A stretch of 64,000 bases of DNA. It comes from Phycisphaerae bacterium. GTDB lineage: Bacteria > Planctomycetota > Phycisphaerae > UBA1845 > PWPN01. The stretch spans positions 1 to 64,000 of the forward strand of contig JAUCQB010000258.1 in the NCBI GenBank assembly GCA_030372985.1, given 5' to 3'. Shown here piece by piece: positions 39,959 through 43,622 of this stretch; position 1 is the first letter of the stretch; each line of letters opens with the position of its first letter. The translations under genes and the position numbers were made by a program. The notes below the pieces were generated by a model. It did not search any database and was not told the DNA's origin. It saw only the letters and a program-made list of their open reading frames with translations.

Positions 39959-40024
39959 GTGGCAAAGAAGAAAGCCAAGAAGGCTGCGAAGAAGGCCAAA
40001 AAGCCGGCTCGCAAGAAGAAATAA
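39959..40024 (+). CDS. Tiny Lys/Ala-rich basic protein (21 residues)
   Basis: GTG at 39959 starts a 21-codon frame in which almost every codon encodes Lys or Ala, with one Pro and one Arg, ending TAA at 40022-40024. The peptide begins VAKKKAKKA and ends PARKKK. AGAAAGGAG sits eight bases before the start, a near-ideal ribosome site, and no larger gene covers it. Composition resembles the Lys/Ala repeats of histone-H1-like or ribosome-associated tails, so nucleic-acid binding is a guess. It begins 151 bp after the mnmE stop and is followed by a 12-bp hairpin. Confidence 0.6.
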   Translation: MAKKKAKKAAKKAKKPARKKK

Positions 40025-40404: not shown

Positions 40405-41478
40405 ATGGCACGCAGATCAGGATCTTCGAATCGCAAGAACCGGGGGCGGCCCCGGCGGGTTCCACCACATGTGTGGGCGGGCTATCCCGAGGATCGCCTT
40501 CTCGACATGCGGTTATGCGATCTGGGGGTGAGCCTGTCGCGGAAACCGATCAGGCGCTGCCTCGAACGGATCCAGCAGGAATTGGAGCAGCGGCAGATCC
40601 GCTTTCGCCCGCACTTCTGGCTGGGGGAAGAGTGGTTCACGCCGGACGGCATACCCGGTGCGGCCGTCCCGTTCTATCTGGCCCATCCGCGACTCGCGCG
40701 GCTTGAGCGAAGCCAGATGCTCGAAGCGGAAGGCGGCACCTATAAGTGGTGCATGCGAATTCTTCGCCACGAGGTCGGTCACGCGATCGACCACGCTTAT
40801 CTGCTTCATCGCCGTCGTCGCTGGCAGCGGCTGTTCGGCAAGTCATCTCAGCCGTATCCGGAGCGCTACATCCCCAAGCCGGACAGCAGGCGATACGTGC
40901 TGCATCTCGATCACTGGTATGCCCAGAGTCATCCGGACGAGGACTTCGCGGAGACCTTTGCCGTCTGGCTTCGGCCGAAGGCGTGGTGGCGGAAGCGTTA
41001 CCAGGGCTGGCCGGCACTCAAGAAACTCGAGTATGTGGATGAGTTGATGCAGGAGATTGCCGGGCAGGCCCCGGTGGTCAGGTCGCGCAGGGTCATCGAA
41101 CCGTTGTCGCGGATTCGCAAGACGCTTCGCGAGCACTACGAACAGAAGCGGGCCCGCTACGGGCAGGGCCTGCCGGCCTTTTATGATCGGGACCTTCGCC
41201 GGCTCTTCTACGGAACGGGCGACAGCCCGCGACGTGAATCGGCGGCTTCATTCATCCGCCGCCATCGTGCCGAAGTTCGCGGGATCGTATCCCGGTGGAC
41301 GCGAGAGTATCAGTACACGCTGGATCTGGTCATGCGAGAGATGATCGCGCGGTGCCAGGAGCTGAGCCTGTACGTGCAGGGGCCGCGCGAGCAGGTGAAG
41401 ATGGATTTCGCCATCCTGCTGACGGTTGAGACGATGAACTACATCCACAGCGGCCGCCGGCGTTTGTTGATCATGTGA
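40405..41478 (+). CDS. Putative zinc metallopeptidase (Peptidase_Mx-like)
   Basis: A 357-residue protein without a signal peptide; the first 20 residues are basic. It carries HExxH in LRHEVGHAIDHAYLL (near residue 122), followed by a conserved-looking YAQSHPDEDFAETFAVWLRP (near 172), the pattern I associate with putative zinc-binding metallopeptidases of the Peptidase_Mx group. Two His and a later Glu would bind zinc; the first Glu is the base. Only three bases separate its stop from the next ATG, so it is translationally coupled to an ATP-grasp ligase. Together they suggest a peptide-forming and peptide-cutting pair; the target is unknown. Confidence 0.75.
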   Translation: MARRSGSSNRKNRGRPRRVPPHVWAGYPEDRLLDMRLCDLGVSLSRKPIRRCLERIQQELEQRQIRFRPHFWLGEEWFTPDGIPGAAVPFYLAHPRLARLERSQMLEAEGGTYKWCMRILRHEVGHAIDHAYLLHRRRRWQRLFGKSSQPYPERYIPKPDSRRYVLHLDHWYAQSHPDEDFAETFAVWLRPKAWWRKRYQGWPALKKLEYVDELMQEIAGQAPVVRSRRVIEPLSRIRKTLREHYEQKRARYGQGLPAFYDRDLRRLFYGTGDSPRRESAASFIRRHRAEVRGIVSRWTREYQYTLDLVMREMIARCQELSLYVQGPREQVKMDFAILLTVETMNYIHSGRRRLLIM

Positions 41479-41481
41479 GTC

Positions 41482-42495
41482 ATGAAGAAGAAACGCGTTC
41501 TGGCCATCATGCACAAGGACCTGGTGCCCCCGGACAGCATCGAAGGGCTGACCGAGGCGGAGGCGGCGCCTTTCAAGACGGAATACGACGTGATGGCCGC
41601 CTGCCGGGCACTGGGCCACGAAGTGCGGCCGTTGGGCATTCGGAGCGATCTGAGCGTTCTGGGCAAGACGATCGAGGAGTGGAAACCCCATATTGTCTTC
41701 AATCTGCTCGAAGAATTCGACGGCGAAGCGGTGATGGATCACAACGTGGTGAGTTATCTGGAGCTGCTCAAGCTGCCGTACACCGGCTGCTCGCCACGCG
41801 GACTGATCCTGGCCCGCGACAAGGGTCTGTCGAAGAAGATCCTGAGTTACCACCGCGTCCGGGTGCCGGCCTTCGCCGTGTTCCCGAGACACAAGACGGT
41901 CAAGCGGCCCACTCGGCTGAAGTTTCCGTTGTTCGTGAAATCGTTGATTGAAGAGGCTTCGCTGGGAATCGCCCAGGCCTCGATCGTCGATGACGAAGAG
42001 AAACTCAAGGAACGCGTGGCCTTCATCCACGACCGGGTCGGCACCGACGCCATTGCCGAACAGTACATTGAAGGACGGGAGCTCTATGTGAGCGTGCTGG
42101 GCAATCGGCGGCTTGAGATATTCCCGATCTGGGAACTGAAATTCACAAAGGCGGGGAATGGCGTTCCGCTGATCGCGACGGCCAAGGTGAAATTCGATCT
42201 GGACTACCAGAAGAAGCTCGGAGTGGAGACTTCGGAGGCAAAGGACCTTTCGCCGGAAGTGGTCAAGGGAATTCTCCGGCTGTGTAAGCGGATCTACCGG
42301 AACCTGGGGCTCAAGGGGTATGCCCGAATTGACATGCGCATGACGGCCGCGGGGCAGGTGTACGTGCTGGAGGCCAATCCGAACCCGCAGTTGGCGCGTG
42401 GAGAGGATTTCGCCGAGGCTGCCCGGGCCGTGGGTATCTCCTACGAGCGACTGATTCAGCGAATCATCAATTTGGGCTTCAGTGGGGCCCGGTAG
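41482..42495 (+). CDS. ATP-grasp ligase, D-Ala-D-Ala-ligase-like
   Basis: A 337-residue ATP-grasp enzyme, joining a carboxylate to an amine via acyl phosphate. The family outline is present: PHIVFNLLEEFDGEA in the N-terminal domain, YTGCSPRGLILARDKGLSKK, VKSLIEEASLGIAQAS (ATP loop), EQYIEGRELYVSVLGN and the Mg site VLEANPNPQLARGEDFA. Compared with Ddl, the N-terminus is different (KRVLAIMHKDLVPPDS) and the omega-loop region is replaced by Lys-rich sequence, so substrates other than D-Ala are likely. It directly follows the metallopeptidase gene with a 3-bp gap. Confidence 0.85.
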   Translation: MKKKRVLAIMHKDLVPPDSIEGLTEAEAAPFKTEYDVMAACRALGHEVRPLGIRSDLSVLGKTIEEWKPHIVFNLLEEFDGEAVMDHNVVSYLELLKLPYTGCSPRGLILARDKGLSKKILSYHRVRVPAFAVFPRHKTVKRPTRLKFPLFVKSLIEEASLGIAQASIVDDEEKLKERVAFIHDRVGTDAIAEQYIEGRELYVSVLGNRRLEIFPIWELKFTKAGNGVPLIATAKVKFDLDYQKKLGVETSEAKDLSPEVVKGILRLCKRIYRNLGLKGYARIDMRMTAAGQVYVLEANPNPQLARGEDFAEAARAVGISYERLIQRIINLGFSGAR

Positions 42496-42755: not shown

Positions 42756-43622
42756 ATGCCGGTAGAGACCTTGTTGATCAGCGGTCCGCCCGGAGGCGGG
42801 AAAAGCGCATTGGCTCGCCTCATTGCAGGGCAAGTCCTCGACCGTCCGGTGCACTATCTTCGCACAAGAAGGTCGGCCGACGGGTACACCAACACCATTG
42901 TCCCGGCAGAGCCGGGGGACGATGGTTGCGGGGCGATCTGGGCTTCGGCCTTTATGATCGGCTACACGGCGGAGAGGGTTTTTGAGACGCTCCCGGACGG
43001 GCTCCGCGAGGTGAGAAAGATCGATCGTTATGGGTTTGCGATCATTGAAGCTGACGGAGATCCGCCACTTCGCCACGCCTATCCCTACGATTACCGTGTT
43101 TTTGTGATGCCCCCGCCTGCGGATGTTCATCAGGTGTTTCGGGATACGCACGAGGCGACCCATGCCTTACAACAGGTAATGCAGGACACCGCTTCGTTTG
43201 CGTCGGAGATATTCGGGCTCTTCAATTCCGCCTGTTTCGATGATGGTGTAGGGGTGTCGCACCATGAACCGGTCTGGACCGGTCCTGCGCAGACTGCGGT
43301 CGAGCGACTCGAGATTGCCGAATCGCAGATTCGCGGTTTTCTGAACTCTCCCCTGGGCGTTGAGATTGCCTCTCGCATTCAGCTTCAGCCCGATTACCAC
43401 GCACTGGTTGAGTCGGACGTGGTCGTGGTGAACACCGGGGTGGGCAAGGGCGGCGAGGTGATGAAGGAATGCGTCAAACGCATCGAGAAGCTGCTTGCGC
43501 GGGTCCGGCATGACGCCCGACGGTCGAGCATTCTGTATTGGGGCAACTTCCTGGACACGAATGATTCCACGCAGAAGCGGCTGCTCAAACGGCTGCGATG
43601 TCTGTTTGCGATGCAGTCGTGA
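42756..43622 (+). CDS. P-loop NTPase, unknown role
   Basis: A 288-residue protein with a Walker A motif at residues 9-16 (SGPPGGGKSALARLIA). The segment HYLRTRRSADGYTNTIVPA shortly after resembles the guanylate-kinase substrate region only loosely. A Walker-B-like EADGD lies near 98. The remainder, including the His/Cys-rich DTHEATHALQQVMQD and the ending KRLLKRLRCL, is not recognised. It starts 260 bp after the ATP-grasp gene on the same strand; whether it belongs to that operon is unclear. Confidence 0.6.
   Translation: MPVETLLISGPPGGGKSALARLIAGQVLDRPVHYLRTRRSADGYTNTIVPAEPGDDGCGAIWASAFMIGYTAERVFETLPDGLREVRKIDRYGFAIIEADGDPPLRHAYPYDYRVFVMPPPADVHQVFRDTHEATHALQQVMQDTASFASEIFGLFNSACFDDGVGVSHHEPVWTGPAQTAVERLEIAESQIRGFLNSPLGVEIASRIQLQPDYHALVESDVVVVNTGVGKGGEVMKECVKRIEKLLARVRHDARRSSILYWGNFLDTNDSTQKRLLKRLRCLFAMQS

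Follow-up and report, generated by a model that had tools for sequence, protein, structure and literature searches.

Two adjacent genes on the forward strand of the window (the whole 64,000-nucleotide stretch of Phycisphaerae DNA analyzed here) encode a zinc metallopeptidase and an ATP-grasp ligase that, on balance, probably constitute a stand-alone cytosolic module for reversible amide-bond formation, in which the ligase would form a bond and the peptidase would cleave the same one. The first gene (40405..41478) encodes a 357-residue protein of the Peptidase_Mx superfamily, and the second (41482..42495) encodes a 337-residue Ddl-like ATP-grasp amide ligase with an altered substrate site. The original prediction described an HExxH peptidase and a Ddl-like ligase three bases apart, and both open reading frames were found where it placed them: the peptidase ends with a TGA codon at 41476-41478 and the ligase starts with ATG at 41482 on the same strand, leaving 3 nt between the genes (41479..41481). 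No mur gene lies beside the pair, again as predicted. The upstream flank carries MnmE, and an orphan P-loop ORF and a PIG-L gene follow downstream. No Rfam RNA was detected in the vicinity of the pair, and promoter or terminator signals around it did not exceed chance.

The pair is not a local accident, and its arrangement is far from chance. Scanning 84,980 species' genomes with the window peptidase yielded 48 loci in eight phyla (Acidobacteriota, Nitrospirota, Planctomycetota, Pseudomonadota, Verrucomicrobiota, Myxococcota, Actinomycetota and Eiseniibacteriota), with phylum labels that follow the record titles of what are mostly metagenome-assembled genomes; this single pattern-based scan, of limited sensitivity, is our census beyond the Planctomycetota. 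At all 46 loci with sufficient downstream DNA, the peptidase gene is followed immediately by the ligase gene in the same orientation. Two further loci (L041 and L047) were left out of this count because their DNA ends too soon past the peptidase. In 29 of the 46 pairs the peptidase and ligase frames share 4 nt, and in 40 the gap between the genes is 11 nt or less, counts that use start codons chosen by homology and in which single cases may shift. Short overlaps and gaps are the usual sign of translational coupling, and the 4-nt overlaps back the earlier claim that the two proteins are made together. Among 294 Planctomycetota genomes, 50 encode a close homologue of the peptidase, scoring about 384 bits or higher, and in all 50 the ligase is adjacent and in the same order (Fisher p 3e-50 for co-occurrence, a value that ignores phylogeny and overstates independence). 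Homologues of the two genes are thus linked elsewhere, across phyla as well as throughout these 50 genomes. Pairwise identities of the two proteins also correlate across 44 loci (r = 0.95, a value that has no baseline and would be expected of any two linked genes).

Six of the 56 close ligases in Planctomycetota have no adjacent peptidase. Three of their genomes (G003, G081 and G131) encode a divergent peptidase elsewhere; no peptidase was detected in the genomes of the other three, G063, G266 and G196, the last of which has its ligase at a contig end. These three genomes indicate that the ligase may work alone. At one further locus (G183:C23:149674-151702), the peptidase frame contains an internal TAG and the ligase match is split in two, so the pair there is either decaying or wrongly assembled. 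We also observed a divergent Planctomycetota peptidase clade (L081-L100) that occurs in multiple copies in some genomes and often has no neighboring ligase. In three of these loci (L083-L085) the peptidase lies directly 3' of a gene of one family, whose member at L084 matches Glycolipid_bind.

Clustering of all flanking ORFs uncovered no third gene common across lineages, and no transporter or other maturation enzyme linked across them. A look for a precursor peptide gene near the ligase, which covered neighbors of at least 60 residues and Lys-rich short ORFs, turned up none that was conserved. Acidobacteria have flanking genes that we take to be GatC, GatA and DnaK; these were rejected as partners, as they represent local synteny specific to that group and the neighbors vary by lineage. 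The original prediction had also singled out a tiny Lys-rich protein upstream of the pair as a possible conserved neighbor. This 21-residue Lys/Ala-rich ORF (39959-40024; MAKKKAKKAAKKAKKPARKKK) is preceded by AAAGGAG, a good ribosome-binding site, and is therefore perhaps a real small gene. However, it had a counterpart at 0 of 66 other pair loci in a screen for similar Lys-rich ORFs, and four loci gave just chance matches of 12-15 residues. We therefore dropped this ORF as a substrate or conserved partner of the pair.

We then considered the identity of the ligase, whose nearest relatives in curated collections are D-Ala-D-Ala ligases and which is easily misannotated as Ddl. The window ligase matches Dala_Dala_lig_C (PF07478) with 95 bits and the NCBIfam D-Ala-D-Ala ligase model with 132 bits, under that model's 243-bit cut-off. 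Its scores against the D-Ala-D-Lac ligases VanA and VanM are 46-62 bits, compared with cut-offs of 760-775. An AlphaFold2 model (pLDDT 90) aligned to Ddl structures in Foldseek with E about 1e-25 and TM about 0.78, at 20-24% identity. Ddl models and structures were the best matches throughout, and no graspetide-type ligase was among the matches. A tree of 85 ligases separated 21 Ddl proteins, E. coli DdlB among them, from all pair ligases with an SH-aLRT of 99, so that the pair ligases form a clade separate from authentic Ddl. The true Ddl of the same genome is encoded on a separate contig (C122), where the adjoining ORFs are presumably MurB and an FtsQ-like protein.

Comparison of 66 pair ligases with 20 Ddl proteins, using E. 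coli DdlB numbering for the specificity and catalytic sites, showed which parts of the active site have changed. The ATP-binding, metal-binding and catalytic residues K97, K144, E180, E187, K215, R255, D257, E270 and N272 are invariant in 66/66 pair ligases. In Ddl, residues E15, S150, Y216 and S281 function in D-Ala specificity, with Ser281 contacting the acceptor carboxylate. E15 is lost from the pair ligases (it is Glu in 18 of the 20 Ddl, with gaps in the other two). The S150 position is Ala in 47, Gly in 14 and Ser in 5 pair ligases; Y216 is replaced by Trp, His or Phe in 65 of 66; and the S281 position is Glu in 63, Asp in 2 and Tyr in 1, whereas all 20 Ddl have Ser, Tyr and Ser at these respective positions. 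G276 is replaced as well, and residue 158 is acidic in most pair ligases. Within the window ligase, an EEASLGI loop (residues 157-163, 41950..41970) lies opposite the EGSSVGM loop of Ddl and has A159 at the Ser150 position. A second segment, NPNPQLARGED (residues 299-309, 42376..42408), keeps the metal-binding N299 and places E308 at the Ser281 position; it also contains N301, a new invariant residue in the same region as the altered sites. The earlier statement that the ligase differs from Ddl in its N-terminus and substrate loop was therefore upheld residue by residue. Judged by alignment and phylogeny, the pair ligase is not a D-Ala-D-Ala ligase. With the catalytic residues kept and the D-Ala-specificity residues replaced, it should be an active amide ligase that uses different substrates. 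Glu at the acceptor-carboxylate site suggests that the acceptor carries an amine or basic group there, and from this change in the sequence alignment with DdlB, together with the invariant N301 and the acidic residue 158, we infer a basic or amine-bearing acceptor.

The peptidase matches the Pfam Peptidase_Mx family (PF15887) with 29.9 bits against a cut-off of 27, and hhalign aligned the pair peptidase profile to canonical Peptidase_Mx with an E-value of 7e-10 over 147 columns. Its catalytic and zinc-binding motif is HEVGH (residues 122-126, 40768..40782), and a downstream EDFAETF stretch (residues 179-185, 40939..40959), which also occurs in canonical Peptidase_Mx, probably contributes the third zinc ligand. 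Residues H122, E123, H126, E179, D180 and E183 are invariant in an alignment of 46 homologues, and the zinc site therefore looks intact. Homologues in the eight phyla are 42-68% identical. The window peptidase has no match to the PF10005 zinc ribbon that is present in a canonical member, and its AlphaFold2 model (pLDDT 88) has a helical C-terminal extension. By profile and motif, then, the pair peptidase belongs to Peptidase_Mx as a divergent member that lacks the zinc ribbon. A sequence search against solved structures gave no convincing match. A fold search gave weak matches only; the best was the Peptidase_Mx structure 4l7a, annotated as a putative zinc-binding metallo-peptidase, and this match (E 0.05, TM 0.25) was too weak to support further conclusions. 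We also discarded the idea that a basic N-terminal tail tethers the peptidase to nucleic acid or the ribosome, because such a tail is present in the window and L003 proteins but is not general: Lys plus Arg make up a mean of 14% of the first 22 residues of pair peptidases, compared to 16% overall.

Canonical Peptidase_Mx proteins have an ATP-grasp connection of their own. They are rare, occurring in 10 of the 294 Planctomycetota genomes, and Alpha-E is present in 9 of those 10 compared with 54 of 294 overall (p 1e-6, without phylogenetic correction). At L180:4241-7852, one apparent operon encodes CP_ATPgrasp_2, Alpha-E and a zinc ribbon/Peptidase_Mx protein. The CP_ATPgrasp_2 and Alpha-E domains are treated in PMC3597751, which cites Iyer et al. 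Canonical Peptidase_Mx thus looks like a component of an Alpha-E amidoligase system. The link is true of the canonical proteins alone and was rejected for the pair, which co-occurs with Alpha-E in only 6 of 50 genomes (p 0.23) and is found in the window genome without Alpha-E. The pair peptidase and its canonical relatives share a homologous domain with RHE-GH and HP-EDFAETFA motifs, and both have an ATP-grasp partner. They differ in that the pair peptidase has no zinc ribbon and carries the helical C-terminal extension, and in that its partner is Ddl-like rather than a circularly permuted ATP-grasp protein. Taken together, the canonical operon and the Ddl-like pair indicate that Peptidase_Mx has formed a partnership with an ATP-grasp amidoligase on at least two occasions, involving two different ligase types.

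Based on these features, we propose that the ligase would activate a carboxylate as an acyl phosphate and join it to an amine, placing an amino acid onto a small peptide or protein, and that the peptidase, made from the same transcript, would remove the group that the ligase added. The two proteins are apparently translationally coupled in most bearers, and coupled synthesis would balance their opposed activities. Both look cytosolic, because no signal peptide is evident by eye on the peptidase and the ligase needs ATP. The acceptor, or the means of making it, would be encoded at another site in the genome. We infer action on one bond, and RimK and RimB, a poly-glutamate ligase and its protease, are the experimental precedent for such opposition (PMC11957791). 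As proposed for the pair, an ATP-grasp ligase is accompanied there by a peptidase that undoes its product; RimB, however, is an aspartic retropepsin-like protease rather than a zinc HExxH enzyme, and RimK belongs to another ATP-grasp family, whereas the pair ligase matches Ddl best. The make-and-break idea of the original prediction accordingly stays the best reading as a whole, with its same-bond element a prediction and a sequential scheme as the main rival. Between a RimK/RimB-like tag on a protein or peptide and a free dipeptide metabolite, we slightly favor the tag. Our more specific suggestion is tentative: that the genes form a cassette for a reversible modification of peptides or proteins, present in at least eight phyla. 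In it, an acceptor that bears an amine, and that may be a conserved cytosolic protein, would receive an amino acid from the Ddl-derived ligase and lose it again to the Peptidase_Mx enzyme.

The nature of the acceptor separates this suggestion from the reading in which the pair modifies no protein and instead produces and recycles a small peptide or amide in free form, such as an osmolyte, a storage compound or a cofactor-like molecule. Enzymes with the Ddl-type fold usually link amino acids in free form, and related Ddl-like ligases lie beside lysine-aminomutase and acetyltransferase genes, a setting that points to small-molecule chemistry. Yet no gene for amino-acid biosynthesis, transport or osmotic stress is linked to the pair across lineages, and we regard a free metabolite as possible but doubtful. 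Since this reading shares the make-and-break step and differs in its acceptor, our confidence in the several readings overlaps and does not sum to one.

Two other explanations depart from the make-and-break scheme itself. The enzymes could act in sequence, with the peptidase first generating or trimming a peptide, whose parent protein would be encoded elsewhere, and the ligase then adding an amino acid to the product or closing an amide on it. The fixed peptidase-then-ligase gene order would suit such a pathway, as would the graspetide-related ATP-grasp branches 7 and 8, where peptidases from several families are linked but no precursor gene lies nearby, and whose peptidases have been proposed as peptide suppliers (PMC8939145). 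Those branches resemble the pair in combining ATP-grasp proteins and peptidases with no visible precursor, but they belong to different ATP-grasp lineages and include additional associated genes, whereas the pair module consists of two genes. Moreover, typical RiPP clusters differ from the pair in having a linked transporter, precursor or maturation enzyme, and the ligase is Ddl-like in both fold and sequence. Sequential action is the main rival but seems rather unlikely to us. A Van-type cell-wall system, in which the ligase makes an alternative peptidoglycan dipeptide while the peptidase destroys normal D-Ala-D-Ala, would follow the logic of VanA/VanX, where a Ddl-like ligase adjoins a zinc peptidase, and Ddl is indeed the nearest relative of the pair ligase. 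We nevertheless consider this explanation very improbable: the ligase falls outside the Ddl clade, has lost four residues that are near-invariant in the 20 Ddl proteins, and scores far below the VanA/VanM cut-offs, so that neither residues nor phylogeny fit D-Ala chemistry. In addition, the peptidase belongs to Peptidase_Mx rather than to M15, the family of VanX, and no wall gene is linked to the pair. The preferred reading remains a ligase and peptidase predicted to work in opposite directions.

A mobile or defense function was also rejected. The peptidase had no match in the plasmid and catalogued-phage collections, and the pair had none in PADLOC. In IMG/VR, a 181-kb contig (L185) encodes a short peptidase relative with no ligase detected, and a short contig of unproven viral origin (L183) encodes both proteins in the usual order (310 and 304 bits). 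Downstream of the pair in the window, the orphan ORF at 42756-43622 has a P-loop (GPPGGGKS) and an HExxH-like HEATH stretch. It matches no Pfam family, has no homologue among the 98 other Planctomycetota genomes searched, and shows a weak PADLOC match to IetA that is confined to its P-loop.

Our search of the literature on the pair and its families found no description of it. An earlier mention is possible in catalogues of amidoligase systems, the main one of which is reportedly that of Iyer et al. 2009 (Mol BioSyst 5:1636). Amidoligase-peptidase modules are a recognized theme, largely uncharacterized, and RimK/RimB illustrates that such a pair can tune the ribosome; a Ddl-derived, two-gene version that crosses phyla was not found in the literature searched. 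The pair represents a minimal stand-alone case that has been preserved between very distantly related bacteria and whose ligase has a clearly retuned Ddl-type active site. It should also be easily tested, because it comprises two soluble enzymes that are predicted to make and break the same bond.

A separate gene cluster came to light among the Planctomycetota. Seven loci (L141, L142 and L144-L148) encode a lysine-2,3-aminomutase-like radical SAM protein, usually two tandem Ddl-like ligases, and a GNAT acetyltransferase, with some loci lacking one or more of these parts. This cluster is distinct from the pair, and its composition suggests a pathway for a beta-lysine-containing peptide or osmolyte.
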